Origin: a virus
DNA length: 53,657 bases
Direction: 5' to 3' (one strand)
Virus record (IMG/VR): IMGVR_UViG_3300036715_001099
Location: 1-53,657 of that record
This document shows, piece by piece, positions 26,469 to 52,498 of this stretch. The number at the start of each line of letters is the position of its first letter. The first letter of the stretch is position 1. The translations under genes were made by a program, and so were the position numbers. The notes below the pieces were generated by a model. That model searched no databases. It saw nothing but the letters and a program-made list of their open reading frames with translations, and was not told the DNA's origin.

Positions 26469-26474
26469 GCGAGA

Positions 26475-26503
26475 AGAGTAACCCGGGGCTTCGCAGGTTG
26501 CAA
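26475..26503 (-). promoter_or_regulatory. Early promoter b inside a terminator hairpin
   Basis: TTGCAA (26498-26503), 17-nt spacer, TACTCT (26475-26480). CCCGGGGCTT (26482-26491) and AAGCCCCGGG (26502-26511) form a hairpin that should end the upstream 118-aa gene's transcript. The hairpin covers the promoter spacer and -35 edge. Confidence 0.75.
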
Positions 26504-26522
26504 GCCCCGGGATGACGATTTC

Positions 26523-26879: not shown

Positions 26880-26910
26880 GTGCGACTCCTGTGTTGCGCG
26901 GTGTGAAAGA

Positions 26911-26939
26911 AGAGTAGCAAAGATCGTCGCGCTGCGCAA
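26911..26939 (-). promoter_or_regulatory. Early promoter c
   Basis: TTGCGC (26934-26939), 17-nt spacer, TACTCT (26911-26916), then the conserved TCTTTCAC. The -35 lies in the loop and arm of the terminator hairpin at 26924-26954. Confidence 0.75.
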
Positions 26940-26954
26940 GTAGCAGCGCGACGA
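26924..26954 (-). terminator. Hairpin terminator of the 73-aa gene, overlapping promoter c
   Basis: A perfect 12-bp stem (26924-26935 with 26943-26954) with a 7-nt loop lies 18 bases after the stop of the upstream gene. Confidence 0.75.
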
Positions 26955-26971
26955 ATGTTGTAAAGCCGACG

Positions 26972-27193
26972 CTACCACCCGAAGAAGCTGAGCGTGTCGC
27001 ACTTCGCCTGTATGCGGCGGAGTAGCTTGGGGCTGACCACGCCGCCCGTCACGCGGAGCACGCCCTCGGTCTGGTTGCACCACGCGGTCTCCTGACCGCT
27101 GCGCGTAACGCTCAGGCTGTACGCATTCTCGCGCTCCACCACAACCACCCCGCCCGCGTCGCGCAGGGTGAACGACTTGGGCGGGGTGTTCAT
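26972..27193 (-). CDS. Hypothetical early protein, 73 aa
   Basis: The start lies one base after the preceding gene's stop, so the two are probably translated together from promoter d. The protein reads FTLRDAGGVVVVEREN and LSVTRSGQE, beta-rich, with a basic C-terminal helix (SPKLLRRIQAKCDTL). No family was recognised. Confidence 0.62.
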   Translation of the reverse strand: MNTPPKSFTLRDAGGVVVVERENAYSLSVTRSGQETAWCNQTEGVLRVTGGVVSPKLLRRIQAKCDTLSFFGW

Positions 27194-27194
27194 G

Positions 27195-27398
27195 CTAGGC
27201 CACCTTCACGGCGAGCGTAGTGCCGCAGGTGTGGTTCCGCATCTCTAGGCTGTAGGCCTCGGGCTCCTCCGCGTCGGTGGGGTCCGCAGGCACGTCCCAG
27301 GTCTTCGGGTCGGGTAGCTGCGCCCATTCGGCCGCGGTGATCGCCACGCCGCACTTCGTGCAACGTTTGGGAAACTCGCCGGCCACTGGGGTCTTCAT
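27195..27398 (-). CDS. Zinc-binding early protein, 67 aa
   Basis: The start ATG 27398 follows AAGGAG. A CTKC pair near residue 14 and a late HTCG (residue about 58) can bind one zinc ion. The middle is acidic (PADPTDAEEPEAY). No family was recognised; small zinc proteins of this kind often modulate host factors, which here is only a guess. Confidence 0.65.
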   Translation of the reverse strand: MKTPVAGEFPKRCTKCGVAITAAEWAQLPDPKTWDVPADPTDAEEPEAYSLEMRNHTCGTTLAVKVA

Positions 27399-27437
27399 GC
27401 TGGGCTCCTTGCTGCGCGGCACCATTGCCGTGAGAGA

Positions 27438-27466
27438 AGAGTAGCAACCCTTCTCCCGCGGCGCAA
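27438..27466 (-). promoter_or_regulatory. Early promoter d
   Basis: TTGCGC (27461-27466), 17-nt spacer, TACTCT (27438-27443). The leader carries the GGCA-ATGG-TGCC hairpin also found after promoters m and n. Confidence 0.75.
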
Positions 27467-27475
27467 CAACATTCG

Positions 27476-27733
27476 TCACACCTGCTCGCCGTTGGCATCG
27501 CGCGCCGTGACGTGGTGGGTGTGGCCACACCCGCGGCACTCAGCCAGGAGGTCTTCGCTGCCACCACCGACCAGCCGACCGTCTTCGGTCATGTTGGCGT
27601 GGCAGGACTCACAGAGGAACTTGCCGCCCATGCCCTGGAGGCGGATGGTGCCCTGCCGCGCAGGGGCCAGCTGGAGGGTGACGTTGCCGTCGCAGGAGGT
27701 AAGCTTGGCGGCCTTCAGGGAGATGGTGGGCAT
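27476..27733 (-). CDS. Zinc-ribbon early protein, 85 aa
   Basis: Two knuckles, CESCHANM (about 41-48) and CRGCGHTH (about 66-73), form a zinc ribbon behind a beta-rich N-terminus (MPTISLKAAKLTSCDGNVTL). The gene has its own promoter at 27788-27816. It could be a transcription or host-interaction factor; no family was recognised. Confidence 0.68.
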   Translation of the reverse strand: MPTISLKAAKLTSCDGNVTLQLAPARQGTIRLQGMGGKFLCESCHANMTEDGRLVGGGSEDLLAECRGCGHTHHVTARDANGEQV

Positions 27734-27787
27734 GTGCGGCTCCGCGGCGCTTGGTTAGTGGGAGAGTGTTGCGCGCCTTGTGAAAGA

Positions 27788-27816
27788 AGAGTAGCGCGGG
27801 CTCACGGGGAACGCAA
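27788..27816 (-). promoter_or_regulatory. Early promoter e
   Basis: TTGCGT (27811-27816), 17-nt spacer, TACTCT (27788-27793), followed by the conserved TCTTTCAC and a GGCGC...GCGCC leader stem. Confidence 0.75.
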
Positions 27817-27835
27817 GTGCTTTGTGACGAATGTT

Positions 27836-27873
27836 GTAAACTCGGCGCAGGCCCCGCGCTGCGCCGAGTTTAC
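27836..27873 (-). terminator. Terminator of the 215-aa early gene
   Basis: A perfect 15-bp stem (27836-27850 with 27859-27873), starting GTAAACTC, lies eight bases after the stop. The terminator at 29269 has the same stem design. Confidence 0.85.
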
Positions 27874-27880
27874 GAGTGGG

Positions 27881-28528
27881 CTACTTCCCCAGAATCACGA
27901 TGCCCTTGCTGACATCCCAGCGCAGGTCGGCCATGGTGCCGCCGAGCGCCAGGAACTCCGCGACCGTAGTCGCTTTGTTGTAGTACGCATCGAACCGGGC
28001 CGCCGAGGCGCCACGCTTCGTGACCCCGGGCTTGAAGGTGAGCGACTGCGCGGGGTTCATGGCCATCGGGTTCTTTCGGCCCATTCGGACCACGTCGGCC
28101 ACATCGCCGACGAGCTTGGCCACGGGGTCCACGGTAGGCCCCGGCTTCGGCGTCGTCACCTCGGGCTCCACAGGCAGCGCAGCGGGCGGAGGCGACTTCA
28201 CGTGGGGCGCCATGGCCACCTCGGCGGGCCGCGGGGTGACCAGCGGGCTCGCGGCCTGTGCGGCCTGCTTCATCTCAAACTCCTTCTGGCCCGCGTTCTC
28301 GGTGGCGATGTGCAGCTGCTCCAACGCGCCGAGCAGCTTCTCCCGCGGGATGCTGGGGTCGGCCTTCTGCGCCTGGAGCCCGTGGCCCTTCGCCAGGCCG
28401 ACGAGGCGCTTGTGGTCCAGGTGAAGCTGCGGCATGGTGTACGCGGCCCACAGTTCGCGCGCCTTGATGACATGCGCCGGGGCAGACGTGGTGGGCTTGA
28501 CTGCGGACTTCGGGGACTTGGTTGCCAT
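27881..28528 (-). CDS. Early protein with ADLRWD module, 215 aa
   Basis: The start is ATG 28528 (MATKSPKSAVK). Residues about 25-90 are helical (ARELWAAYTMPQLHLDHKRL, IPREKLLGALEQLHIATEN). A Pro-rich linker leads to a C-terminal module, TKRGASAARFDAYY ... TTVAEFLALGGTMADLRWD. The helical domain may be the effector and the module a common recognition part (inference). It has its own promoter and terminator. Confidence 0.72.
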   Translation of the reverse strand: MATKSPKSAVKPTTSAPAHVIKARELWAAYTMPQLHLDHKRLVGLAKGHGLQAQKADPSIPREKLLGALEQLHIATENAGQKEFEMKQAAQAASPLVTPRPAEVAMAPHVKSPPPAALPVEPEVTTPKPGPTVDPVAKLVGDVADVVRMGRKNPMAMNPAQSLTFKPGVTKRGASAARFDAYYNKATTVAEFLALGGTMADLRWDVSKGIVILGK

Positions 28529-28582
28529 GGTGAAGCTCCGGGTTCGACGTGGTTGCTGCGTTGACTGCGCCCTACAAGAGGA

Positions 28583-28611
28583 AGAGTAACCCGGGGCTCG
28601 CAGGATTGCAA
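28583..28611 (-). promoter_or_regulatory. Early promoter f
   Basis: TTGCAA (28606-28611), 17-nt spacer, TACTCT (28583-28588). An imperfect hairpin (CCGGGACT with AGCCCCGG) overlaps the spacer, as in promoter b. Confidence 0.75.
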
Positions 28612-28640
28612 GTCCCGGTTGTACGATTTGTGACGATTTG

Positions 28641-29165
28641 TTACGGAACGAGCTTGAAGATGCCGTGGGCCAGATCCCAGCGGAGGTCGGCGCGCGTGCC
28701 GCCGAGGGCGAGGAACTCGCCAACCGTGGTCGCGCCGCTGTAGGCTTCGAACCGAGCCGCGCAGGCGCCACGCTTGCCCATCCCGTCCACGGCCTGAATC
28801 TTCGTGTCCGGGGCCAGCTGCGCGGCCTTCGCCTTCGCCGGCTTCGCAGCCTGCGCGACCGTGGTCGGCGCCTGGCCCATGCGCTCGTCGAAGTAGGCCG
28901 CGGCCTGCGCGTTCGTGGCGTTGTCAGTGGAAATCTCGCAGGTCTGCCACACGCTCTTCGCGGTCTGCCCGTTGGCCTTGCGCCCGCGGCCGATGCCCGG
29001 CTCCTCATTGACCGCCTCCGCCCCGACCAGCCCTGCGGCGTCCAGCTTACCGAGCGCGTTGCGCGCGGCCGAGGCGCTGATGCCGAAGTGCTCGGCGACG
29101 TCCGTGGTGTGGACGGCGAACTCGGCGAAGACGTAGAGGTAGATGGACTTCAGGTCGGTGGTCAT
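28641..29165 (-). CDS. Winged-helix protein with ADLRWD module, 174 aa
   Basis: Residues 5-70 form a winged helix: SIYLYVFAEFAVHTTDVAEH, FGISASAARNALGKLDAAGL, and a basic wing PGIGRGRKANG. This MarR/ArsR-like domain should bind DNA. After an Ala/Lys linker, the C-terminus has the module (GKRGACAARFEAYS, GGTRADLRWDLAHG). The pairing of a DNA-binding domain with the module hints that the module has a partner near DNA. A candidate early regulator. Confidence 0.75.
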   Translation of the reverse strand: MTTDLKSIYLYVFAEFAVHTTDVAEHFGISASAARNALGKLDAAGLVGAEAVNEEPGIGRGRKANGQTAKSVWQTCEISTDNATNAQAAAYFDERMGQAPTTVAQAAKPAKAKAAQLAPDTKIQAVDGMGKRGACAARFEAYSGATTVGEFLALGGTRADLRWDLAHGIFKLVP

Positions 29166-29209
29166 TTGCGGCTCCAGGCGGCGAGGTTGTTTGTTGCGCC
29201 GTTGAAAGA

Positions 29210-29238
29210 AGAGTAGCGCAGGTGTTCCGGTAATGCAA
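29210..29238 (-). promoter_or_regulatory. Early promoter g
   Basis: TTGCAT (29233-29238), 17-nt spacer, TACTCT (29210-29215), TCTTTCAA after it, and a CGGCG...CGCCG leader stem. Confidence 0.75.
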
Positions 29239-29268
29239 GCGACTATCTTCGGGTTCGTGACGATTTCT

Positions 29269-29306
29269 GTAAACTCCGCGCAGCGGGCAGGCTGCGCGGA
29301 GTTTAC
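29269..29306 (-). terminator. Terminator of the 89-aa early gene
   Basis: A perfect 15-bp stem (29269-29283 with 29292-29306) starting GTAAACTC, eight bases after the stop; nearly the same as the hairpin at 27836. Confidence 0.85.
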
Positions 29307-29313
29307 GAGTGGC

Positions 29314-29583
29314 CTACTTGGAGACGACCGCGTAGCCGTGCGCGAGGTCCCAGCGCAGGTCGGCCATCTTCCCGCCGAGCAGGATGAACTCGGCGACCGA
29401 GGTGGCTGCGCTGTACTTCGCGAAGCGGGCGAAAGACGACGTGCCAGGCCGCTTCGGGTTTTCAGTGACGAAGCGCAGCCCCGTGACCGTGGTGTCGGTG
29501 CTGACCACCTTGCGCATGTCCCGGAGAACGGCGACGTCGGCGTACTTCGGGGAGGTGGCGTTCTTCAGGACGTTGGCGGACAT
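29314..29583 (-). CDS. Early protein with ADLRWD module, 89 aa
   Basis: The start is ATG 29583 (MSANVLKNATSPK). A short N-terminal region with DVAVLRDMRKVVSTD leads to the module: NPKRPGTSSFARFAKYS, SVAEFILLGGKMADLRWDLA. It is close to a minimal example of the shared domain. It has its own promoter and terminator. Confidence 0.75.
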   Translation of the reverse strand: MSANVLKNATSPKYADVAVLRDMRKVVSTDTTVTGLRFVTENPKRPGTSSFARFAKYSAATSVAEFILLGGKMADLRWDLAHGYAVVSK

Positions 29584-29630
29584 GTGAGGCTCCAGGTGTT
29601 GCGTGAGGCGCGGGATGCGCCGTTGAAAGA

Positions 29631-29659
29631 AGAGTAGCAAGGTTCTTCAGGCGTTGCAA
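29631..29659 (-). promoter_or_regulatory. Early promoter h
   Basis: TTGCAA (29654-29659), 17-nt spacer, TACTCT (29631-29636). The leader has a GGCGC-ATCCC-GCGCC stem. Confidence 0.75.
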
Positions 29660-29677
29660 GTACCTTCTTCGTTTTAT

Positions 29678-29896
29678 TTACTTGACCACGGTGACGAACC
29701 CGTGAGCGAAGTCCCAGCGGAGGTCCGCAGCGGTGCCGCCGAGGAGGAACATCTCCGCGATGCAAGTAGCAGCGCAGTAGCGAGCGAACCGGGCCGCCGA
29801 GGCGCCACGCTTGCTGACGCCAGCCTTGAAAGCAATCTTCGTGACCTTCGTGCTGTTCGACTTGACGGTACGGAGATCGCGGATCGAGCGGGCCAT
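29678..29896 (-). CDS. Minimal ADLRWD-module early protein, 72 aa
   Basis: The start is ATG 29896 behind CTGGAG. Nearly the whole protein is the module (SKRGASAARFARYC, CIAEMFLLGGTAADLRWDFA), with only about 25 residues before it. The frame stays open upstream through a GTG near 29980, so a longer form from promoter j is possible. Confidence 0.72.
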   Translation of the reverse strand: MARSIRDLRTVKSNSTKVTKIAFKAGVSKRGASAARFARYCAATCIAEMFLLGGTAADLRWDFAHGFVTVVK

Positions 29897-29938
29897 GGTA
29901 GACTCCAGGTTCAGCGGGTTGACTGCGTTTGTGAGAGA

Positions 29939-29967
29939 AGAGTAACAGACTTCTTTGAGCGCTGCAA
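29939..29967 (-). promoter_or_regulatory. Early promoter i
   Basis: TTGCAG (29962-29967), 17-nt spacer, TACTCT (29939-29944), followed by TCTCTCAC. Confidence 0.7.
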
Positions 29968-30027
29968 CTTCTTTCTTCACTTTGTTTCGCGGCTTGCTGC
30001 GCACCGCACCGCGTCCCAACAAGAGAG

Positions 30028-30056
30028 AGGATAGTACCATCCTCTAAGGAACGCAA
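30028..30056 (-). promoter_or_regulatory. Early promoter j (tandem or orphan)
   Basis: TTGCGT (30051-30056), 17-nt spacer, TATCCT (30028-30033). No separate gene lies between it and promoter i, so it is either a second promoter for the 72-aa gene or the trace of a lost gene. Confidence 0.6.
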
Positions 30057-30079
30057 GCCCCTCGATGACGATTTCTGAA

Positions 30080-30117
30080 GAAAGTTCCCAAGTGCCTGGA
30101 ATCACTTGGGAACTTTC
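30080..30117 (-). terminator. Terminator of the 257-aa early gene
   Basis: A perfect 15-bp stem (30080-30094 with 30103-30117) lies eight bases after the stop codon at 30126. Confidence 0.85.
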
Positions 30118-30125
30118 GAAGGCCG

Positions 30126-30899
30126 CTACTCGCAGCGTGCCGCGTGGATGCTGGGCTGAATCGCGACGAAGGGCCGCGGGGCGCTGCACAGGCCGGCGAT
30201 GTCGTCCTCCATGGCCTGTGCAGCGTAGTCCAGCGCGTTCCAGGGAGCCTGCGCCACAGCCTCGAGGCGCTCCTTGGCGCACCGTGCGCAGCCGCAGAAG
30301 CGGCTCTGCCCGCCGACGCACAGAGCGTCCTGCTCTTCCTTCGGCATCTCACGGCCACAGTCTACGCAGGCGTTGTTCAGGTAGCTACAGCCGCCAAGCT
30401 GCGCGCAGCGCGAAGGGTCCGTGGCGCTCGGCACGTCGTCGGCCAGCTGGAGTGGCGCCTGCTCGTACTCCGGGCGCGTGGTGGTCACGCCAGGCGCGTA
30501 CTCCGGCTCCACCACGGCGATGGGCTGGCCGCAGGTGTGGCAGTCCGCCGAGCCGCCGAAGATGTGGCCGTCGCGCTTGCACTCGGCCGCGCGGTCCGCC
30601 AGGTACTCGCCACGGTATGCGTTCACGCCCTGCGCAAGCGCCGCGTTGAAGATGTGGCTGGCCAGGTACTCCGCCGCCTCGGTCAGTTCCGCGTTGTTGC
30701 GCGGGGTCCGCACGTTCACCACGATGCCCTCGGCGCGGGCCATGGTCACAGCCGCCTTGTAGCGGTCCATCCGGCCCTCCACAGTGTGCCTGTAGTCCCG
30801 CTCCGACGTGAAGGTGGTCTCGTAGCCAGTCTGGAACCCGTAGTCCTTGCAGGCGAAGAGGGCGTAGTGGAAGGCGTCCTGAATCTTGCTGGCGTCCAT
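30126..30899 (-). CDS. Cysteine-rich early protein, 257 aa
   Basis: The start is ATG 30899 (MDASKIQDAFHYALFACKD). The N-terminal half resembles the 103-aa protein at 31723: GIVVNVRTPRN against GIYALRPPQ, AEYLASHIFN against ASWLAATIFL, GVNAYRGE against GWNAYTGA. The C-terminal half holds CHTCGQ, CVDCGRE and FCGCARC, a cluster of zinc-binding knuckles. It thus looks like the short paralogue with an added zinc region. The function is unknown. Confidence 0.7.
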   Translation of the reverse strand: MDASKIQDAFHYALFACKDYGFQTGYETTFTSERDYRHTVEGRMDRYKAAVTMARAEGIVVNVRTPRNNAELTEAAEYLASHIFNAALAQGVNAYRGEYLADRAAECKRDGHIFGGSADCHTCGQPIAVVEPEYAPGVTTTRPEYEQAPLQLADDVPSATDPSRCAQLGGCSYLNNACVDCGREMPKEEQDALCVGGQSRFCGCARCAKERLEAVAQAPWNALDYAAQAMEDDIAGLCSAPRPFVAIQPSIHAARCE

Positions 30900-30950
30900 G
30901 GTGTGACTCCGGTTCGGCGTTGGCCGCGCCCTGTTGCGCGGTGTGAAGGA

Positions 30951-30979
30951 AGAGTAACCCGGGGCTCGCGGGATTGCAA
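30951..30979 (-). promoter_or_regulatory. Early promoter k
   Basis: TTGCAA (30974-30979), 17-nt spacer, TACTCT (30951-30956). GGGGCT and AGCCCC flank the -35/spacer as a hairpin. Confidence 0.75.
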
Positions 30980-30998
30980 GCCCCTTCTTCAAGTTTCT

Positions 30999-31250
30999 TC
31001 AAGCTTCTTCGCGGGGCATCCGGGTCCCGCAGCTGTGGCGCCCCACGTACATCTCGGAGCCGTCGGCGTACTCGTAGCAGGTGTCATCCCCGTCCGGGCT
31101 GGCAAACGCCTTCCCAGCGCGCATGTCGGCTTCGCCCTGCGCGGCGGCCATGTCCCGCACCTCCCGCTTCCGCTTACCAGCCACGATTCGTGCCACAGCC
31201 ATCGCGTACTCCGCCTGCGTGCCCTGGAATGCCGTCGGATCGTAACCCAT
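30999..31250 (-). CDS. Hypothetical early protein, 83 aa
   Basis: The start is ATG 31250 (MGYDPTAFQGTQAEYAMAV), with GGAGTT upstream. A basic segment (ARIVAGKRKREVRDM) is followed by an acidic one (SPDGDDTCYEYADGSE) and a C-terminal HSCGTRMPREEA. The two Cys and His residues may bind metal. No family was recognised. Confidence 0.65.
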   Translation of the reverse strand: MGYDPTAFQGTQAEYAMAVARIVAGKRKREVRDMAAAQGEADMRAGKAFASPDGDDTCYEYADGSEMYVGRHSCGTRMPREEA

Positions 31251-31290
31251 GTTCAACTCCTTGCTGCGCGGAATTGCGCGGTGTGAAAGA

Positions 31291-31319
31291 AGAGTAACCC
31301 AGGGCTCGCGGGATTGCAA
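31291..31319 (-). promoter_or_regulatory. Early promoter l
   Basis: TTGCAA (31314-31319), 17-nt spacer, TACTCT (31291-31296). CCCGGGGCT and AGCCCTGGG form a hairpin around the -35 and spacer that doubles as a terminator for the 87-aa gene. Confidence 0.75.
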
Positions 31320-31338
31320 GCCCCGGGTCACAATTATT

Positions 31339-31602
31339 TTAGAAGTGCTTATCGAACTCCGCCAGGGCCATCGCCTCGGTGTACGCGGGGCCGCGGTAGC
31401 CGGACTGGAAGGCCTCGGCGGGACCAACGTTGTGCCAGTAGACCCCGTCCGCGCAGCCGACCATGTTGGCCTTGATGAGATGCCTGGCCAGGGCCTCAAC
31501 CTCGGGGACCGTGACGCCCACGGCCTGCGCCAGTTCGTTCATGTTGGGGTCCATGTTGTGGAAGATGAACAGGAAGGCGGTCTTTATCTTGTTGCGATCC
31601 AT
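31339..31602 (-). CDS. Possible winged-helix early protein, 87 aa
   Basis: The start is ATG 31602 (MDRNKIKTAFLFIF). MNELAQAVGVTVPEVEALARH followed by LIKANMVGCADGVYW resembles a helix-turn-helix and wing, so DNA binding is possible. Its first residues resemble those of the proteins at 30126 and 31723. The C-terminus is aromatic and acidic. Confidence 0.65.
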   Translation of the reverse strand: MDRNKIKTAFLFIFHNMDPNMNELAQAVGVTVPEVEALARHLIKANMVGCADGVYWHNVGPAEAFQSGYRGPAYTEAMALAEFDKHF

Positions 31603-31641
31603 TTTCGGCTCCTTGTTGCGCGGCACCATTGCCGTGAAAGA

Positions 31642-31669
31642 AGAGTAGCACAGCGCTCGGCGATTGCAA
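31642..31669 (-). promoter_or_regulatory. Early promoter m
   Basis: TTGCAA (31664-31669), 16-nt spacer, TACTCT (31642-31647); the only one of the 15 with a 16-nt spacer. The GGCA-ATGG-TGCC leader hairpin follows. Confidence 0.75.
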
Positions 31670-31690
31670 GCCCCTTCTTCAAAATAAAAG

Positions 31691-31716
31691 CGGGGCCAGC
31701 TGCGCGGCTGGCCCCG
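31691..31716 (-). terminator. Intrinsic terminator of the 103-aa early gene
   Basis: CGGGGCCAGC (31691-31700) pairs with GCTGGCCCCG (31707-31716); on the minus strand CTTTTATTTT follows. This is the most canonical terminator of the early region. Confidence 0.9.
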
Positions 31717-31722
31717 TGGTGC

Positions 31723-32034
31723 TCAGCCCGGATAGCTGGCATCCCAGGGCGCGCCCGTGTAGGCGTTCCACCCTTCGGCTTGGCCGCACAGGAAGATGGT
31801 GGCTGCGAGCCAGCTGGCGTAGCGATCCCACGCGGGCCCTGTGGCGCACTGTGGCGGGCGCAGCGCGTAGATACCCACCACAGCCGCGCAGTTCACGGCA
31901 CGCTGCGCGTAGTCGACCTGTTCGCTGATGCTTTGCGCACAGTCGTTGGTCGATTCGTGACCGTAGCGCATCCCGCCATCTTGCATGGCAGCGATCGCCA
32001 AATGGTAGGCCCGCTGCAATGTATCCTTATTCAT
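31723..32034 (-). CDS. Early protein, paralogue of the 257-aa protein's N-terminal half, 103 aa
   Basis: The start is ATG 32034 (MNKDTLQRAYHLAIAAMQD). Shared features with the protein at 30126 are the AYHLAIAAMQDGGM / AFHYALFACKDYGF start, the GI..RxP segment and the IF...G.NAY.G end. The protein is helical and soluble. The function is unknown. Confidence 0.68.
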   Translation of the reverse strand: MNKDTLQRAYHLAIAAMQDGGMRYGHESTNDCAQSISEQVDYAQRAVNCAAVVGIYALRPPQCATGPAWDRYASWLAATIFLCGQAEGWNAYTGAPWDASYPG

Positions 32035-32073
32035 TTGCGTCTCCTTACTGCGCGGCACCATTGCCGTGAAAGA

Positions 32074-32102
32074 AGAGTAGCACTGGCTCCCACCGAACGC
32101 AA
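32074..32102 (-). promoter_or_regulatory. Early promoter n
   Basis: TTGCGT (32097-32102), 17-nt spacer, TACTCT (32074-32079), conserved TCTTTCAC and the GGCA-ATGG-TGCC hairpin. Confidence 0.75.
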
Positions 32103-32110
32103 GCCCCTCA

Positions 32111-32779
32111 TCACAAAAACTTCACGTAACCCTTTTTCATGTCCCATGCAAGATCCGCACTCGTACCGCCCCGGGCGTGGTACTCCGCGACCGTTGGGGC
32201 GCCCATGTAGCCGGCGAACCGGGCCGCCGAGGCGCCACGCTTCGGGTTCGCCTGTACGAGCCACTCCAAGCGCCGCACGTCGGCCAGAGCGTGCGCAGCC
32301 ACACCTGCGGCGACCTTGACCCCAGACAGCTTGGTAACGACGAGCTCGTTCGGCAGGCCCATCCGCCTGCAAGAAGAGTGCGCCCGGCGCTCGCCCGGCA
32401 CAAACCGCTTGAAGTAGAAGACATGATCGCACGCGGGGCATACACCCTTGAAGCCTGTGGTGGGCGGGGGAATGACCGCGTCGGCTTCGCTGAAGTACCG
32501 CTCGGGCTTGCACCCGAGCGACACGGCCCACCTCTGCCAGAGCGGCCCGTGGCCTGCGGCGTAGCCTGCGATCGCGTGGGCGATCTCGTGGAGGATGGTG
32601 TCTAGCACAGCGGGCCGCTCGTTGGCTTCGGTCAACTCCACTGACAGGCAGATCTCCATGGCCTCATACTTGCACATCCCGAAGGACTTGGAGCTACGCA
32701 CGAAGCTGAACACCCATCGGGCGTCCAGGTAGCGGGACATCTCATGGCGGGCCAGTTGCGCAGCTTCGATCAGGTTCAT
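32111..32779 (-). CDS. SprT-like metalloprotease fused to an ADLRWD module, 222 aa
   Basis: The start is ATG 32779. HEIAH (64-68) with a later GHGPLW (His about 77) is the zinc metalloprotease signature of SprT/Spartan-like peptidases. Two Cys pairs (CPACDHV at 114 and a Cys near 137) form the zinc ribbon common in the family. The C-terminus carries the shared module (NPKRGASAARFAGYM, GGTSADLAWDMKKGY). Eukaryotic Spartan cuts DNA-protein cross-links; here a role in removing protein from DNA is inferred. It is driven by promoter o. Confidence 0.8.
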   Translation of the reverse strand: MNLIEAAQLARHEMSRYLDARWVFSFVRSSKSFGMCKYEAMEICLSVELTEANERPAVLDTILHEIAHAIAGYAAGHGPLWQRWAVSLGCKPERYFSEADAVIPPPTTGFKGVCPACDHVFYFKRFVPGERRAHSSCRRMGLPNELVVTKLSGVKVAAGVAAHALADVRRLEWLVQANPKRGASAARFAGYMGAPTVAEYHARGGTSADLAWDMKKGYVKFL

Positions 32780-32875: not shown

Positions 32876-32995
32876 GGTCGGTTCTCAAGCGTACCACAGA
32901 TCGCTCGAGCGGTGTAAGAAATCTTCGAGCGTCGGCGGGGCGGTCAAGGTCGGTTCTCAAGCGTACCACAGATCGCTCGAGCGGTGTAAGAAATC
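32876..32995. repeat. 48-bp perfect direct repeat with palindromic core
   Basis: 32876-32923 and 32948-32995 are identical over 48 bp, separated by 24 bp (72-bp period). Each copy contains the 10-bp palindrome CGCTCGAGCG followed by GTGTAAGAAATC. Candidate roles are a regulator binding site or replication-origin repeats. The region 32834-33210 holds no gene. Confidence 0.85.
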
Positions 32996-39963: not shown

Positions 39964-41013
39964 TTACTTTGCTTCCGGGTGCGCCTTCAGCCACAGCTGG
40001 CCCGCCCGGCTCCAGTCGCTGGCGTGGCACTCCTCGAGGAATCCCTCGTCCCTGTGCAGCCACGCATTCCACATCGGGATTGCGACCTCCTGCCACCACG
40101 CCGTCTCGTAGTGATCGACGGTCTGGGACCTCGGGCCGTGCTCATCGAAGTCTTCGAAGAAGCTGGCCAGGTCGTCGTCCCATCCCGTGTCGCCGGCGCA
40201 CATCGGCGTCGCAGCCACGCCACCCTTCGCGTAGAGGTCATCGCTGACCGGGTCGCCGTGGTCGAGCTCTCCGCTGACGCGCGCCCACACCTTCGAAGAC
40301 CCGCCTTCGGTGTAGACGTGGAACGAGTCGCTGATCTGAATCATCTGGCCTACCTCCACGCCGAGCTTCCCGGCGATGTACTCCTGGAGCATGGAGAAGT
40401 GGACTGCGTTCGCGCCGTACGCACCCCAGACCATGTCGTTGGAGCGACAGCAGATGGTCATGCGCAGCGCCCCGTCGCGCAGCTTGAAGTAGAGGATGGA
40501 GTTGCACGGGATGTCCTTGCTGTCGATCCCGCCAACCTGCCTCACCACCCCATCGGGGTCCTGCGCGCCGAACGTCCGCAGGTCGTGCCGCGTGTCCCAC
40601 ATGGCGATCACGCCGCGACGCGTGTTCTTGTCACGCTTGATGACCTCCACCACGGCCTGAATCTGGTCGATGCCGAAGGCCGTGCGCCACCGCCATCCAT
40701 AGGCGCCTTGCATCAGCCATCCGTTGTCACTGAAACTCGCCATGTGCTTCACGATGGTCGCAGGGAACCGAACGTCGTTCCGGCCCGCCAGCATCCAGAG
40801 CGCTTCGAACAGGTGAAAGAACGGGTTGGCGTCGCGCACCGCGCTGAACAGGACGCGCTCAGTGGGCCTGTCGTAGGTGGTGATAACCGGGGCGGGCCAC
40901 TCCAAGACCTTCGTGCCGCGTGCCGCGATGGCGAACGACTGACGCGCGAAGATGTGAAGGAGCTCAGCCCCACGCTGAAACGCCCCGTTGACGTTGCGAA
41001 TGTTGATCTCCAT
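39964..41013 (-). CDS. Thymidylate-synthase homologue, likely pyrimidine hydroxymethylase or ThyA-like
   Basis: The TS fold is clear: FFHLFEALWMLAGRND (65-80), GAYGWRWR (103-110), RRGVIAMWD (132-140), DIPCNSILYF with the Cys170 nucleophile, RSNDMVWGAYGANAVHFS with Arg190 and Asn202, and ISDSFHVY. Canonical TS has PPCH and FNIA where this has PCNS and GANA, so it is divergent. Neighbours for base modification make a dUMP (or dCMP) hydroxymethyltransferase plausible; Asn202 rather than Asp favours the dUMP substrate by analogy. It lies right downstream of the TAGT-like glycosyltransferase. Confidence 0.8.
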   Translation of the reverse strand: MEINIRNVNGAFQRGAELLHIFARQSFAIAARGTKVLEWPAPVITTYDRPTERVLFSAVRDANPFFHLFEALWMLAGRNDVRFPATIVKHMASFSDNGWLMQGAYGWRWRTAFGIDQIQAVVEVIKRDKNTRRGVIAMWDTRHDLRTFGAQDPDGVVRQVGGIDSKDIPCNSILYFKLRDGALRMTICCRSNDMVWGAYGANAVHFSMLQEYIAGKLGVEVGQMIQISDSFHVYTEGGSSKVWARVSGELDHGDPVSDDLYAKGGVAATPMCAGDTGWDDDLASFFEDFDEHGPRSQTVDHYETAWWQEVAIPMWNAWLHRDEGFLEECHASDWSRAGQLWLKAHPEAK

Positions 41014-41017
41014 GGGT

Positions 41018-41869
41018 CTAGACCTTTCCCTTGACTGCCGTCTTCAGTGACTTCTGGCGCAGCGCCTCGGCCTCCGCAGCGGCCTTGACCCTCGCGTTGT
41101 GCCCGACCGCGTTGCGCCACGAGATGACAACGTCCTGCCGTGTGGCGCCCTCCATGCCTTCCCAGGCGGGCTTCTCCACGACCTTGACGTACTCGCTGTG
41201 GAGCTCCTTCAAGCGCAGCGCGCTGGCGTTGTGGCGCTCGAGCGTCCGCCAGGTGGAACAGCCTCCGGTCGCGTTGCTCGTGCCCATCGTGCAGCGCCAC
41301 TCCAGGCTGACCCGGTTATTGAATCCGGCCTTCATCAGTTGGAGCGTCATGTGAAAGTCCTCCATGCACCACCACGACTCAGGCCCGAGAATGAAGCTCG
41401 CCTTGTTGGCGAACACGACCGGGACGTTGTAGGCGAGGCAGTACATCATCCGCCCGGACATGTGGCTCTGCGTAACCGGGGCTGCGTAGGCCAGCTGTCG
41501 CACGCCCCATCCGCAGTGAGGCACCTCGTCCAGCGTGGTCTCGATCCACTGGAGCGCCTCCATCACCTCTGCCGGCGAGCAGTCGGTGATCTTTCCGTCG
41601 TCTCGCCGGCGCTGAACGTGCCGCATGTCGTCATCCATCATGACGACCTTGTCCCAACCATTCTTCTTCGCGGTGTCGAGGACAAACTGCCTCACAGCGG
41701 AGATACCCATCTTGTCGCAGACCAGCACCGAGCGACCGAGCGCCAGGTGCGCAGGAGCCTCCTCCTTCGTGCAGACGATGGATGTGACGGCGCGCGCAGC
41801 GGGCGGAAGCGCGTTCCAGGTGTGTTGCTTGTTGACACGGTTCAGCGTGGGAATGAAGATACGCAGCAT
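41018..41869 (-). CDS. TAGT-like glycosyltransferase (GT-A fold), DNA modification candidate
   Basis: The N-terminus MLRIFIPTLNRVNKQHT starts a GT-A fold. VVMMDDDMRHVQRR (76-89) is a DDD nucleotide-sugar/metal site, and WWCMEDFHMTLQLMKAG (about 166-182) contains a candidate catalytic acid. The order resembles TET-associated glycosyltransferases (TAGT), known to glycosylate hydroxymethylated bases in phage DNA. Neither the sugar nor the acceptor can be read from the sequence, and I saw no TET/JBP oxygenase in this window. Confidence 0.68.
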   Translation of the reverse strand: MLRIFIPTLNRVNKQHTWNALPPAARAVTSIVCTKEEAPAHLALGRSVLVCDKMGISAVRQFVLDTAKKNGWDKVVMMDDDMRHVQRRRDDGKITDCSPAEVMEALQWIETTLDEVPHCGWGVRQLAYAAPVTQSHMSGRMMYCLAYNVPVVFANKASFILGPESWWCMEDFHMTLQLMKAGFNNRVSLEWRCTMGTSNATGGCSTWRTLERHNASALRLKELHSEYVKVVEKPAWEGMEGATRQDVVISWRNAVGHNARVKAAAEAEALRQKSLKTAVKGKV

Positions 41870-41878
41870 GGTCGCTCC

Positions 41879-42754
41879 TTACTTCTTGGGCTTCGGGTGA
41901 TGATACGTGGAACGTGGACGGCCTTGACCGAGCCTGACTCGCTCGTACTTGTCGAACTCACAAAGGCAGAACTGAACGTCGTGGGCGGAGAGCGGCTTGA
42001 TACCCGTGCCAATGAGTTCAGCATTCACAGCACCCTGCACAGCCATCAACTCGGCGACCCAGAAGGCCTCCTTGCCGCCTCCGTAGTGCAGGTCCCGCTC
42101 CTGTAGGCGGTTGATACCGCGCCGAGCGCCCGGCCCTACAGGACTCCAGGTCAGCGCGTCGTCCGCGTCCTTGCCGAAGCGCGTCAGGAGCACGTCCTGT
42201 AGAACCTCCTTGCTCATGAATCCGCTCCCGCCGAAGCCAGGTACAGTCTTCAGCACGTCGTACGCCGCTTCCCAGCTGCGCCGCATCTTTAGCGCGGACA
42301 TCACCATCGGGGCGCGCTTCCACATGCTGCCGATGAAGTCACAGACCACAACTTCTTTCGGCTCAGTCCGGCCACAGTTCGTGATGACGTAGGCACCTGT
42401 GAAGACCCGAGCCCCCGCGCCGAGCCGAGCCCGCGCAGTCTGGATGACGCTCTTCGCGACGTCGTCGTTCCAGTCATTGAGCCAGCCCAGATGCTCCATG
42501 AATTCGAAGGTGCCAAAGTACCTGGCGATCGTGCAGTTGAGCAGCGTCACTTCGGGCTTCGTCTTCGCGTTGATGTTCTTGTCGTAGATCGCCTTGAACC
42601 GCTTCGTGGCCGCGTCGTCCTCTCGGTGAACGTTCGTGAACTTGTACTTGTGGAGAATGGGGTCCTTGGTCCACGGGGACGGGAGCCCGGCTGCGCGCTT
42701 GACGCGTATGGACTCGCGCTCCCGGATGTAGCCTGCGAAGGCTTCGGTGTTCAC
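41879..42754 (-). CDS. 5-hmdU-DNA-kinase helical / aGPT-pyrophosphorylase-like protein
   Basis: The 291 residues show the family's signature: YIRERESIRVKRAAG (9-23), LPSPWTKDPILHKYKF (24-39), TNVHREDDAATKRF (40-53), a helical core, VPGFGGSGFMSKEVLQD and LSAHDVQFCLCEFDKYER. This helical domain occurs in phage 5-hydroxymethyl-dU kinases and in alpha-glutamyl/putrescinyl-thymine pyrophosphorylases that hypermodify thymine. There is no P-loop kinase domain attached, so it matches the stand-alone type. The start overlaps the deaminase stop by four bases. Confidence 0.72.
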   Translation of the reverse strand: MNTEAFAGYIRERESIRVKRAAGLPSPWTKDPILHKYKFTNVHREDDAATKRFKAIYDKNINAKTKPEVTLLNCTIARYFGTFEFMEHLGWLNDWNDDVAKSVIQTARARLGAGARVFTGAYVITNCGRTEPKEVVVCDFIGSMWKRAPMVMSALKMRRSWEAAYDVLKTVPGFGGSGFMSKEVLQDVLLTRFGKDADDALTWSPVGPGARRGINRLQERDLHYGGGKEAFWVAELMAVQGAVNAELIGTGIKPLSAHDVQFCLCEFDKYERVRLGQGRPRSTYHHPKPKK

Positions 42755-43620
42755 AGGAGCTCCATGGCGTCAACGGTGAAGTGTCCATCGACACAGGTCG
42801 GGCAGCGCGTGCGCAGCGGCGGAAGCTCTTCGTAGACGGTGCCGGGGAGTTGCACACCGTAGATCAGCGGTCGGATGTCTGCGGCCGACACTGGCCATGT
42901 CACGAGCCCAGTGCAGCGCCAGCACATGCCGCGCGCCGTAAAGCAGGCCCCTAGCTGCCCCGCTGGAGGGCTAACGGTGCCGGGCCCGGCCTGTGGGGTG
43001 GGTGCCGTTGGCGCCCTTGCCTGCGGCTGTGCTGCGAAGTCGCGCTTACGCACAGGCTCCTCAAGTAGCTTGGGAATCTTGTACGCGAACATCTCGTCGA
43101 GCGCCGCGTTGCGCGCGGTGAAGTAGCTCGGGACATCCGACTCGAGCCGCACCATCTCAACCCCGGCGATCTTCGCAAGCCACCCGACCACCTTGGACTC
43201 CCGTGGCTCACGGCTCGGGTACGTGTCGAGCTCGTACACGACGCGCTTGATTCCACTTGCCAGCACCACGTTCTTCATGCAAGGCGCGCACGGGATATGA
43301 GTGCAGACCAGCGACGCGGTACTCAGGTCAACACCTGCGCGCAGCGCCTTGCGAACAGCATTCACCTCAGCGTGAATGACGAGCTCATACTTCGTGAGCT
43401 TGTTCTCGGTTGTCTCGCGCTGATTCCAGGTCTCCTCAGCGTCCGGCACGCCGACAGGGAACCCGTTGTACCCGATGAACAACCCGCCGCTGACCGGGTC
43501 GTAGATGCAAGCGCCGACCTTCGTGCTCGGGTCCTTGCTGCGCGACTCCGCCCACAGCTTGCACACCGCGAGAATCGCTTCTTCAGTGCTCAGCTTCGAC
43601 TTCAGGATGTTCGGTTGCAT
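42751..43620 (-). CDS. dCMP deaminase-like protein with C-terminal zinc-ribbon extension
   Basis: The start is ATG 43620. The deaminase domain has HAEVNAV (83-89) and CAPCMKNV (111-118), plus the TKVGACIYDPVSG and GYNGFPVGVPD segments of DCTD-type enzymes. It would make dUMP for the TS homologue. Residues about 200-230 (rich in Pro, Ala and Gly) are encoded by a copy of the dispersed repeat E5. The final 60 residues carry CWRC and CPTC, a zinc ribbon not normal in dCMP deaminase. The repeat therefore forms the linker between two domains. Confidence 0.88.
   Translation of the reverse strand: MQPNILKSKLSTEEAILAVCKLWAESRSKDPSTKVGACIYDPVSGGLFIGYNGFPVGVPDAEETWNQRETTENKLTKYELVIHAEVNAVRKALRAGVDLSTASLVCTHIPCAPCMKNVVLASGIKRVVYELDTYPSREPRESKVVGWLAKIAGVEMVRLESDVPSYFTARNAALDEMFAYKIPKLLEEPVRKRDFAAQPQARAPTAPTPQAGPGTVSPPAGQLGACFTARGMCWRCTGLVTWPVSAADIRPLIYGVQLPGTVYEELPPLRTRCPTCVDGHFTVDAMELL
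42930..43020 (-). repeat. Dispersed GC-rich element E5 within the deaminase gene
   Basis: On the minus strand TAGCCCTCCAGCGGGGC is followed by AGCTAGGGGCCTGCTTT (42940-42973). This matches the intergenic copy at 11222-11256 with two mismatches and one indel. It is read as protein here, in frame, encoding a Pro/Gly/Ala-rich linker. Confidence 0.75.
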
Positions 43621-48898: not shown

Positions 48899-49167
48899 GG
48901 CGTCTCCTGTGCAACCTTCTTGTGTCGTTTGCGGCCGATCTCGTTGACGTGCTTCGGACAGTACCGCTTCGCGTCGGTGCCGTCCGCGGTAGCCCGGAAG
49001 TAACACTGATGCTCAGCAACAAGATCATCAGCAGCGACCGTGAATTCACACCGCACCTCCGGCCCCTTCTTGGGCTCCTGAAACACCTTCGTGAACGACA
49101 TTCCGAGCGGGTTGCTCGCTGCTCTAGGTACTTTCGGGTACATACTGCGCACGCCTCGGTTCGCCAT
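48895..49167 (-). CDS. Hypothetical protein, 90 aa
   Basis: The start overlaps the upstream DpdA-like stop and the stop overlaps the next start. The N-terminus is basic (MANRGVRSMYPKVPRAASNP) and a later CEFTVAADDLVAEHQCYFRA leads to YCPKHVNEIGRKRHKK, with Cys/His residues suited to metal. No family was recognised. Confidence 0.6.
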   Translation of the reverse strand: MANRGVRSMYPKVPRAASNPLGMSFTKVFQEPKKGPEVRCEFTVAADDLVAEHQCYFRATADGTDAKRYCPKHVNEIGRKRHKKVAQETP

Positions 49168-49970
49168 CAGGCAAGCTCCTTACACTGTTCGAATAACTTT
49201 TCACGCCAACGCATAGCGAACGTTCTGCAGTTCTGACAAGCCGAGTGCGTACACCCTGGAAGCGGCCCCTCCCTGCGCCCCGCTAGACTCCACGCCAATG
49301 AGTCGGCGCTGTGCAGCAGTCCGGTCACCTTGGCGAGCCCTTGGGTCTTCACGCCGAACCCGTGCAACTTCAACCCGTGCGCGTGTAGTCGCTTCACGAT
49401 CCCTGCTATCTCGTCGGTCGCCTGGCGCCTGCACACAGATCCCAGTCCTACTATTGGCTCCTTTCGTAGGTCCACTCCAGCGCGCAGATACATCTGGATA
49501 TGAGCGAAGTAGTCGTCATTCTCCCAACCTTGCAACACCGGAGTCCACTGAATCTCAGGGGCCATACGGCGCAGGTCCATGAGTGACTGAACAGTTAGCT
49601 TCTGATGCTCCGTCGTAGTCTTCCCGGTCTTCGCTCGAATCACTGGCTCGCACATCCAGTCCTGGATTGCAGCCCAGTCCATTCCACCTATCTGCTTCGC
49701 CCATCTACGAACCTCTTCAACGTAAGCGGCTGCGCTCACCGCACCCCAGTCGCCATTCATGGAAAGCTCGGAAAATCCCCCCGAGTCAAGCGACCACCGA
49801 GTAACACTCTTCGGCCACCATTTCTGTTGAGTAAGCCTGCGCCGTGAGACGAAGAGCGGAACGTTCACCTTGGTCAGCCAGTCTGGAAGATGGGTGCCAA
49901 GGTAGAACAACGTCTTGACCGCGGGCGCGCTCGGACGTGGTTGCCTCGGGTAGCGCAGCGGCAGGCTCAT
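49167..49970 (-). CDS. dpdA: DpdA-like 7-deazaguanine DNA insertion enzyme (TGT fold)
   Basis: The start is ATG 49970, overlapping the previous stop as ATGA. The 267-residue protein matches the phage DpdA family: SRRRLTQQKWW, WSLDSGGFSELS (59-70), AAIQDWMCEP, PVLQGWENDDY, VGLGSVCRRQ (174-183), LKLHGFGVKT and SADSLAWS, with a C-terminal C-H-C-C zinc site (240-248). The Asp in LDSGGF is the TGT catalytic-type residue. DpdA exchanges guanine for a 7-deazaguanine in DNA, protecting against restriction. No queuosine-precursor genes were seen, so the host would have to supply the base. Confidence 0.82.
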   Translation of the reverse strand: MSLPLRYPRQPRPSAPAVKTLFYLGTHLPDWLTKVNVPLFVSRRRLTQQKWWPKSVTRWSLDSGGFSELSMNGDWGAVSAAAYVEEVRRWAKQIGGMDWAAIQDWMCEPVIRAKTGKTTTEHQKLTVQSLMDLRRMAPEIQWTPVLQGWENDDYFAHIQMYLRAGVDLRKEPIVGLGSVCRRQATDEIAGIVKRLHAHGLKLHGFGVKTQGLAKVTGLLHSADSLAWSLAGRREGPLPGCTHSACQNCRTFAMRWREKLFEQCKELA

Positions 49971-50197
49971 GCGGCCCAACCTAATCCAACGCCGCATGAC
50001 CAGCAAATTCGATAGGAGCCCTCAGCACCACGCGCTTCGTCGTACCGAATGCGGTGACCCTCTTCGCTGCACTCCTTCAGAATTCGCTTGCGCTCCTCCA
50101 TCAGAATTCTCAGCTTGTTGTCGATGGCGCTGAGTCCGCTCTTTCTGGAGAACTCCGAAGGTGTGGGGTGTGGGGCGTGCGTCGACCACGCCCCCAT
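49967..50197 (-). CDS. Hypothetical protein, 76 aa
   Basis: The start ATG 50197 is preceded by GAGGAAG. A long helix (LSAIDNKLRILMEERKRIL) leads to a C-terminal CWSC pair with SYRICWSCGVGLGW. No family was recognised. It is coupled to the DpdA-like gene. Confidence 0.62.
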   Translation of the reverse strand: MGAWSTHAPHPTPSEFSRKSGLSAIDNKLRILMEERKRILKECSEEGHRIRYDEARGAEGSYRICWSCGVGLGWAA

Positions 50198-51362: not shown

Positions 51363-51607
51363 TTCACGTAGAGATGCAAGCTGATGTCGGGCCCGGCGGA
51401 GCGCTGCACATACGGAGACAGCGGATCCACCTTGCTCAGTACCGGGCGCCGGATGTCCAACTCCATGTCCTCGATCTCTCCGTGCTCCGGGCTCAGGTTG
51501 TGCGTGGTGCCGTCGTCCATCGTCATGATTACAATCATGGACCTGACCTTGCTCGGCTTCAGGTTGTCCGTGGTCAGCTTGATATCCACTTCGTCCTTCG
51601 TGCTCAT
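51347..51607 (-). CDS. Hypothetical protein, 86 aa
   Basis: Beta-rich protein (VDIKLTTDNLKPSKVRSMIV, SLHLYVKWKVK) with an acidic middle. Its end overlaps the next start by 16 bases. No family was recognised. Confidence 0.58.
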   Translation of the reverse strand: MSTKDEVDIKLTTDNLKPSKVRSMIVIMTMDDGTTHNLSPEHGEIEDMELDIRRPVLSKVDPLSPYVQRSAGPDISLHLYVKWKVK

Positions 51608-52044
51608 GGATTCACCTTCTTAGCCCGCGGGTCAGCGGGCGGGTTCGGGTAGATCAGCGGTAGAGCAGGGTCAACGGTCCAATCGTATTGCTTGTAGAAC
51701 TCGGGTTCCTTGCGTAGCAGGAGCGCCTTGTGCATGTCGTGAAACTCGTCGCCTCCGAACCACGGAGGCATCGCCGTAGTGCCATCCTTGCGCTGATCGG
51801 GGACTTCCATGTTGTTCACGTAGCCCCGGCGCTTCCACTCCCAGATGACCTCGCGCATGTAGATGCACAGAGCGTTGTCGTAGTGAGTCCACATCTTCGT
51901 TGCCGGGTGGTTCACCCATCCCGCCGTGACCCCGCGCAGGCCGTTGATGATCTGCAGGCACTCCAGGCGCTGCTTACCGAGCCGACGCATATCCAGGCAG
52001 CTTGCGCTCTGCACGAAACTCGGGTAGGGGAGAAAGGTCTGCAT
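51604..52044 (-). CDS. Pyrimidine-dimer-glycosylase-like (MSMEG_6728 family) protein
   Basis: The start is ATG 52044. MQTFLPYPSFVQSASCLDMR, RRLGKQRLECLQIINGL, GWVNHPATKMW and WTHYDNALCIYMREVIWEWK match the MSMEG_6728 / pyrimidine dimer DNA glycosylase-like family. The family is linked to T4 endonuclease V, but I did not see its catalytic N-terminal threonine, so glycosylase activity is not assured. It may repair DNA or act on modified bases. Confidence 0.75.
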   Translation of the reverse strand: MQTFLPYPSFVQSASCLDMRRLGKQRLECLQIINGLRGVTAGWVNHPATKMWTHYDNALCIYMREVIWEWKRRGYVNNMEVPDQRKDGTTAMPPWFGGDEFHDMHKALLLRKEPEFYKQYDWTVDPALPLIYPNPPADPRAKKVNP

Positions 52045-52048
52045 CGCG

Positions 52049-52498
52049 CTACTCCTTCTCTGGCTTGGCTGCAAGAGGAATCTTCTTGACGACAGGTCTG
52101 GGGCCGATCGTGGTCTGCGGCTTCGGAACAGGGAAGTCGGTGTGACCCCGTGCAGCTGCGATCTGGCTTACATCACTCGGACGCCCGCGCAGTTTGCCAA
52201 CCGCGGGATCGTCCAGTCGCTCGCGAACCTCCTGCGCAGTGGCCGTCTCCAGCGAAATGCTGATGAGGGCGCGCAGCACATTCCCGCTCGAACTGAACAT
52301 CTTCACGACGCGCTCAGTGGCGCGAACCTTGTTGGCGAGCGGAGATATCTGCGCGAAAATGCCCGACGGGAGCACGCGGTTGAGCGCCGCTTGCGCCTGA
52401 TCAAGCTCCTTGAGAGCGCCTGCGTAGCACTCTGCACGCAGCTTTTCAATGTGAGCAAGCTGTTGGATATCCACGGAAACCTGTAAGATACTCCCCAT
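52049..52498 (-). CDS. Hypothetical protein, 149 aa
   Basis: The first gene of the leftward arm. Helical N-terminus (QQLAHIEKLRAECYAGALKE), a central ATERVVKMFSSSGNVLRALI and a basic, Pro-rich tail (RPVVKKIPLAAKPEKE). No family was recognised. It is a candidate regulator or terminase-like accessory from its position beside the divergent promoter. Confidence 0.62.
   Translation of the reverse strand: MGSILQVSVDIQQLAHIEKLRAECYAGALKELDQAQAALNRVLPSGIFAQISPLANKVRATERVVKMFSSSGNVLRALISISLETATAQEVRERLDDPAVGKLRGRPSDVSQIAAARGHTDFPVPKPQTTIGPRPVVKKIPLAAKPEKE

Follow-up and report, generated by a model that had tools for sequence, protein, structure and literature searches.

The virus record IMGVR_UViG_3300036715_001099 is a single linear IMG/VR contig of 53,657 bases with both ends open (the window, in what follows), in which the plus strand holds terminase, portal, head and tail genes and the minus strand those for replication. 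Four adjoining minus-strand genes, at 39964-43620, code for a dCMP deaminase, a protein of the HMUDK_hel family (named after the helical domain of the 5-hydroxymethyldeoxyuridine (5-hmdU) DNA kinase, and also called aGPT-PPlase1), a TAGT-family glycosyltransferase and a homologue of thymidylate synthase (TS) (Table 1). An initial annotation, made from the letters of the DNA, had described these genes as a pyrimidine hypermodification cluster, and all four were found where it had placed them, with strong matches in Pfam and PHROGs that far exceed chance. The four Pfam families (PF00383, PF18723, PF20691 and PF00303) are matched well above their curated cut-offs, with 61.5 bits at a cut-off of 27.5 in the case of TAGT, and nothing pointed to unrelated families; in-house profiles run against reversed open reading frames gave nothing at E <= 1e-3. 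The HMUDK_hel gene overlaps the stop of the deaminase gene by 4 nt, and gaps of 9 nt and 4 nt separate HMUDK_hel from TAGT and TAGT from the TS homologue. All four prove to be real and intact, in an operon-like layout. Together they probably form a 5-hmdU glycosylation cassette, in which 5-hmdU would take the place of thymine and then be glycosylated, and the HMUDK_hel protein would serve as the DNA-engaging partner of TAGT.

Table 1. Features of the window
Feature	Length	Position	Strand	Match
dCMP deaminase	289 aa	42751..43620	minus	PF00383, 7e-16; phrog_174 (dCMP deaminase), 6e-32
HMUDK_hel / aGPT-PPlase1 protein, GTG start	291 aa	41879..42754	minus	PF18723, 4.3e-35; phrog_2396, 5e-45
TAGT-family glycosyltransferase	283 aa	41018..41869	minus	PF20691, 1.4e-16; phrog_842 (beta-glucosyl-HMC-alpha-glucosyltransferase), 6e-37
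TS homologue	349 aa	39964..41013	minus	PF00303, 1.4e-14; phrog_5131 (thymidylate synthase), 7e-95
HD-domain YfbR-like 5'-nucleotidase	185 aa	39382..39939	minus	PF12917, 3e-19; phrog_7076 (dATP triphosphohydrolase), 6e-15
Small conserved protein, YGxSWKKRGG motif	126 aa	39009..39389	minus	45% to protein 54 of Pam3 (annotation 'nucleotide modification')
DpdA		49167-50006	minus	PF23859, 2.7e-82
Pyrimidine dimer DNA glycosylase family protein		51604-52074	minus	PF03013, 2.6e-23
Repeated element among small minus-strand genes	~50 nt	26447-32116		
Two identical copies	48 nt each	32876-32995		

The modified base had been left by the initial annotation as either 5-hmdU or 5-hydroxymethyldeoxycytidine (5-hmdC); a hypermodified pyrimidine is supported as a prediction, and the TS homologue narrows it to uracil. 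This protein has a catalytic Cys170, the stretch Arg190-Ser-Asn-Asp193 (RSND) and an Asn202 at the column of ThyA Asn177. Asn or Asp at this column is the established divider of uracil-type enzymes (ThyA) from cytosine-type enzymes (dCMP hydroxymethylases). As the TS homologue keeps the dUMP-type Asn, the predicted substrate of the modification is 5-hmdU and not 5-hmdC. The motif PCNS (Cys170-Asn171), remarked upon earlier as a divergence from PPCH, is present but not peculiar to this protein, being the signature of the whole hydroxymethylase clade around Yuavirus M6, which retains the dUMP-type Asn. Judged by these residues, the TS homologue is predicted to be a dUMP 5-hydroxymethylase of the type of M6 gp58, to which it is 38% identical.

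Phages commonly carry TS-superfamily genes, and the homologue could thus belong to ordinary metabolism, yielding dTMP, with a glycosyltransferase whose target is not DNA. This is most improbable, as PCN replaces the PCH of true thymidylate synthases, the nearest solved relative is the CMP hydroxymethylase MilA, and TAGT co-segregates with HMUDK_hel and TS in conserved order beside replication genes in unrelated phages. Just as remote is a cytosine pathway, in which the TS homologue would be a dCMP hydroxymethylase and TAGT would glucosylate 5-hmdC as in T-even phages, even though phrog_842 takes in the T-even beta-glucosyl-HMC-alpha-glucosyltransferases and the homologue in Brevibacterium phage LuckyBarnes was announced as a dCMP-hydroxymethylase (PMC6588365). 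Here the specificity column holds Asn202, whereas Asp occupies it in MilA and in the dCMP/CMP-type enzymes of 12 representative TAGT loci without HMUDK_hel; the TS homologue groups with M6 gp58, and the DNA of M6 carries a 5-hmdU derivative (PMC6449724); and the cluster is headed by a dCMP deaminase gene. The Asn at the specificity column of the LuckyBarnes enzyme suggests that it, too, would use dUMP rather than the announced dCMP.

The division between the two bases is mirrored in related loci. In essentially all of the loci fetched that bear HMUDK_hel, the TS homologue has Cys-Asn and the specificity Asn, whereas Cys-Thr and Asp mark the TAGT loci that lack HMUDK_hel. With TAGT loci represented at 70% TS identity, 41 combine HMUDK_hel with Asn and none combines it with Asp, as opposed to 2 Asn-type and 12 Asp-type loci without HMUDK_hel (Fisher p 2e-10). 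The HD gene is present in 55 of 68 Asn-type but 0 of 13 Asp-type representative loci, and HMUDK_hel was not found in 26 whole records of HMUDK_hel-less TAGT loci. A separate TAGT group, with the order TS (Asp type)-deaminase-TAGT and without HMUDK_hel or HD, is predicted to consist of 5-hmdC systems (L131-L136, L138, L141, L143-L145, L148, L151-L157, L159-L161, L163, L164, L166 and L169). The closest HMUDK_hel relative among the matches listed (48%; L008:9977-12388) adjoins a gene of the ThyX type (PF02511) in place of a TS of the ThyA type; no TAGT was found by Pfam in this 75-kb record, and the ThyX-type gene is perhaps an alternative hydroxymethylase.

The other enzymes of the cluster can be fitted around this step. 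The deaminase, 36% identical to M6 gp65 over the core and extended by a C-terminal CxxC...CxxC stretch, is predicted to supply dUMP. The HD nucleotidase (33% to M6 gp59) adjoins the TS homologue downstream, is part of this module in related clusters too and is predicted to skew the dNTP pool. In TAGT, residues 79-81 (D79-D80-D81, DxD-like) and 202-204 (GGC) are invariant in six aligned members, and the enzyme is predicted from its sequence to glycosylate 5-hmdU in DNA.

No match to the 5-hmdU DNA kinase (PF18748) or to the Tet_JBP dioxygenase (PF12851) was obtained in the window at E <= 1, as the initial annotation had claimed for both. The window likewise lacks a detectable amino acid:DNA transferase (ADDT, PF18724) and homologues of the radical SAM, pyridoxal phosphate (PLP) or FAD enzymes of the M6 type. 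As the contig is linear with open ends, a missing gene may still lie outside it, and the kinase was therefore also sought in the whole records of relatives. It was not found in 38 whole IMG/VR records with HMUDK_hel and TAGT, many of them 50-90 kb, or in LuckyBarnes; the search run on the HMUDK_hel and TAGT records does detect it in M6, Pam3, RHph_TM26 and L017. The sensitivity of PF18748 is limited, since the weak kinases of L032, L070 and L168 were missed by it and caught by an in-house profile, for which a single locus with HMUDK_hel and TAGT (L168) is positive.

A sugar- or amine-decorated pyrimidine had been predicted at the outset; the sugar is probable, and the amine finds no support in a window where kinase, ADDT and M6-type radical SAM, PLP or FAD enzymes were not found. 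An M6-type amine pathway would require a kinase outside the window or supplied by the host, with TAGT as a side branch. HMUDK_hel is named after the kinase, the linear record may be incomplete, and kinase and TAGT do occur together in L168, but the 38 kinase-free records, the missing ADDT and tailoring enzymes, and the direct adjacency of kinase and HMUDK_hel in M6, Sphaerotilus phage SN1 and Pseudanabaena phage Pam3 make such a pathway very unlikely. The cluster is best read as an M6-like 5-hmdU pathway in which the kinase branch is swapped for a glycosyltransferase.

Further loci were gathered by alignment-based scans of IMG/VR, with HMUDK_hel (the nearest 80 of at least 577 loci) and with TAGT (79 loci); a scan with the TAGT of the record as a single protein gave no matches. 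The genes located between HMUDK_hel and TS were clustered, and profiles for three further families (GT-B a, GT-B b and X15) were derived from those loci. Among 119 viral loci with HMUDK_hel and TS, 117 carry one effector each, namely TAGT (70), GT-B a (25), GT-B b (10), X15 (6) or the kinase (6); the remaining two carry TAGT together with the kinase (L168) and no effector. For the HMUDK_hel-seeded loci with TS, the numbers are 33 for TAGT, 25 for GT-B a, 10 for GT-B b, 6 for X15, 2 for the kinase, 0 for TAGT with kinase and 1 for none. The effector gene of the viral loci is always on the same strand as HMUDK_hel and TS. TAGT was not found in 29 whole records with HMUDK_hel and another or no effector, in a search that recovered the TAGT of the record itself, and fusions of HMUDK_hel and TAGT do not occur among the loci. 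GT-B a matches Glycos_transf_1 weakly (7e-5) and is related to GT-B b (profile-to-profile E 3e-6); X15 yielded a low-confidence model (predicted local distance difference test, pLDDT, 63), with GT-B glycosyltransferases as its best structural matches, which include T4 alpha-glucosyltransferase with HMU-containing DNA (4e-4).

In a tree of HMUDK_hel built by a quick method, effectors switch at least 21 times, and close relatives can have different effectors, as in the pairs L082/L058 and L077/L055 or in L039 and L049 within a GT-B clade. A smaller set of bacterial contigs and metagenome-assembled genomes, gathered with HMUDK_hel as query, has TAGT (3), GT-B a (3) or the kinase (6) beside HMUDK_hel and TS. 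Other enzymes recur in these neighbourhoods: a radical SAM/SPASM protein (PF04055, PF13186) is often located between HMUDK_hel and TS (L010:1196-2152 and 27 other loci, mostly with TAGT), and additional tailoring of the sugar is suggested by FkbM methyltransferases, present in 18 loci, and by a GalE-like epimerase that L028, L039 and L049 encode.

For HMUDK_hel itself, the AlphaFold model is all-helical and of high confidence (pLDDT 96.2). Foldseek matches it to viral HMUDK_hel models (1e-12), to the SP10 5-hmdU DNA kinase of 637 residues (5e-9) and, with less significance (E 8e-4), to a model of an amino acid:DNA transferase. In the PDB, the best matches are QNG1/DUF2419 (E 0.08) and the archaeal 8-oxoguanine DNA glycosylase MjOgg (E 0.96), with none at or below 0.001, and no solved relative of either HMUDK_hel or TAGT came up when structures were searched by sequence. 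The stretch VPGFGGSGFMSKEVLQD resembles a helix-hairpin-helix, as judged by eye only. Since the PDB matches are non-significant and the helix-hairpin-helix was assigned by eye, it is from context that we infer a DNA-engaging, base-presenting role. T4 beta-glucosyltransferase glucosylates 5hmU:G pairs or single strands but not 5hmU:A duplexes (PMC4111573), and this inactivity on the 5hmU:A duplex makes it plausible that uracil, unlike cytosine, calls for a helper.

Alternatively, HMUDK_hel could be an enzyme in its own right, acting on 5-hmdU or glycosyl-5-hmdU, so that a second group is placed on the base or the two proteins use different sites. The polar residues R13, N41, R44, D47, C265, E266 and K269, invariant in 69 HMUDK_hel sequences, look like an active site, and the structural match to the amino acid:DNA transferase model, the cellular pairs of HMUDK_hel and TS and the solitary HMUDK_hel genes, which lack an effector, would all be in keeping with this. 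Near-exclusive pairing with a kinase or with one of several glycosyltransferase families, on the other hand, is more easily read as the mark of a shared partner than of a fixed second chemistry, and we consider an activity of its own to be the less likely explanation, though one to be taken seriously.

Several observations weigh against the proposed cassette with HMUDK_hel as the partner of TAGT. The assignment of a DNA-glycosylase-like (HhH-GPD) fold is weak. Two Asn-type TAGT loci are without HMUDK_hel (L004/ctUhy936, a complete 40-kb record, and L116), L011 pairs HMUDK_hel with a dCMP-type (Asp) TS, and L168 carries both TAGT and kinase. Five cellular loci with HMUDK_hel and TS have no recognised effector (L186-L189 and L201) and HMUDK_hel stands alone in the cellular genome L182, so HMUDK_hel may have its own activity. 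The count of exactly one effector is also in part a matter of construction and sampling, because the profiles come from the very loci that were counted, which are also those nearest to the record; the near-exclusivity of the pairing is not due to these. As for the cellular copies themselves, L188, L189 and L201 are Hyphomicrobiaceae chromosomes, L188 also with a protein with an SWKRRGG motif, and L182 is from Sphingomonadaceae, where HMUDK_hel lies near a transposase-like gene; cellular HMUDK_hel genes possibly serve host modification or defence.

The pathway proposed for the cluster, whose catalytic activities are all predicted, would begin with the conversion of dCMP to dUMP by the deaminase. 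The TS homologue would then convert dUMP to 5-hydroxymethyl-dUMP, to be phosphorylated and incorporated opposite A, and the HD nucleotidase would reduce the competing pool of thymidine nucleotides. After replication, TAGT would attach a putative sugar at the 5-hydroxymethyl group to form a base-J-like glycosyl-5-hmdU, and HMUDK_hel, which would not be a kinase here, would bind DNA and present 5-hmdU to TAGT, as it may also do beside the kinase of M6-type phages. Glycosylated 5-hmdU as the product is moderately well supported. What can be read from the sequences is the family of each protein, the dUMP-type residue of the TS homologue, a gene order that is conserved, a window free of the kinase and, across viral loci, the near-exclusive pairing of HMUDK_hel with one effector. 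More tentatively, and with somewhat less than even chances, HMUDK_hel could be a general 5-hmdU-presenting module, needed for 5-hmdU:A and not for 5-hmdC:G, whose mutually unrelated effectors, either a P-loop kinase or a glycosyltransferase from at least two and perhaps four families, would have been exchanged again and again. The effector pattern suggests a mix-and-match system that disguises viral DNA.

Next to the HD gene, the 126-aa protein with the YGxSWKKRGG motif, for which a Pfam search gave no match, probably belongs to the module; a firm tie of this protein to TS by fusion was considered and rejected, as its match to the C-terminal end of TS in LuckyBarnes is short and reaches only E 0.002. 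Elsewhere in the window, the gene for DpdA, which inserts 7-deazaguanines into DNA, hints that G as well as T may be modified in this phage; QueC and QueD were not found in the record, and DpdA is set apart from the module because 0 of 48 other HMUDK_hel-bearing records searched have it. A pyrimidine dimer DNA glycosylase family protein is encoded nearby. The repeated element (GTGAAAGAAGAGTAACCC...TGCAAG) is present in about 8 or more copies, possibly as repeated promoters or leaders, in a region that also has partly paralogous gene segments (123 nt, 4 copies), and the two 48-nt copies further on lie 72 nt apart from start to start.

If the cassette acts as proposed, annotation is led astray by the name '5-hmdU DNA kinase, helical domain' for this family, HMUDK_hel and the Asn or Asp of the TS homologue would predict which pyrimidine is modified, and a large phage group would be expected to have glycosylated 5-hmdU, a base-J-like nucleotide. 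New 5-hmdU DNA glycosyltransferases would be useful for 5hmU labelling. Should HMUDK_hel be a presenting module, its presence would predict uracil-type modification, hundreds of phages would have base-J-like glycosyl-5-hmdU, and the phage of this record, with its DpdA, would be doubly modified, in T and G. The isolated phages LuckyBarnes (host Brevibacterium iodinum) and Hasitha (host Microbacterium foliorum) grow on ordinary laboratory hosts and bring the prediction within direct experimental reach.

Among known systems, the M6/ViI-type clusters are the most similar. In Pseudomonas phage M6, the gene order is ADDT (gp51), a PLP enzyme, a radical SAM enzyme, the kinase (gp54), HMUDK_hel (gp55, the full-length homologue of the present protein at 31% identity), Nmad5, the TS homologue (gp58) and HD (gp59), followed at some distance by DNA polymerase and dCMP deaminase; the clusters of Pam3 and SN1 resemble it. 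The dUMP-type TS homologue, HMUDK_hel, HD nucleotidase and dCMP deaminase are shared with this type, and the order HMUDK_hel-TS-HD near DNA polymerase is common to the record, M6 and Pam3; by contrast, the record is without kinase, ADDT, radical SAM, PLP and Nmad5 genes and has TAGT between HMUDK_hel and TS. In T-even glucosylation, a pyrimidine is also hydroxymethylated before replication and receives its sugar afterwards, with a TAGT in T6 (PMC13390438), but the hydroxymethylase of the record is of the uracil type and HMUDK_hel is present. TET/JBP-TAGT phages and kinetoplastid base J share the hydroxymethyl pyrimidine with a glycosyltransferase and a product like the one predicted here, whereas the record has no TET/JBP and its hydroxymethyl group would be made on the nucleotide and not on DNA.

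The initial annotation had not recognised the combination of genes as described. It is not unique, as about 70 IMG/VR loci, LuckyBarnes and Hasitha share it, and it is neither wholly undescribed nor new, because a 2022 report on pelagiphages (PMC9599517) mentions TS, aG/PT-PPlase1, 5'-deoxynucleotidase and beta-glucosyl-HMC-alpha-glucosyltransferase, seemingly an identical set of four functions that share a region close to DNA polymerase. Those clusters are from uncultivated marine podoviruses, and in the parts of the report that were available, effector exclusivity, TS specificity and the role of HMUDK_hel are not addressed. LuckyBarnes has TS (gp41), two TAGT (gp40, gp39) and an HMUDK_hel homologue (gp38) as consecutive genes, and Hasitha has HMUDK_hel (gp54), TS (gp50) and two TAGT (gp47, gp46); both resemble the record in these three families and in that no kinase was found in them, and differ in their second TAGT gene, LuckyBarnes also in an HMUDK_hel only about 27% identical and a TS extended at the C-terminus. 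No published statement on effector exclusivity or the uracil/cytosine split was found in the literature compared, which left aside Iyer 2013, Lee 2018 and Lee 2022. The most interesting part lies beyond the record itself: what looks new, compared with these systems, is the near-exclusive pairing of HMUDK_hel with a single effector and its restriction to uracil-type clusters.

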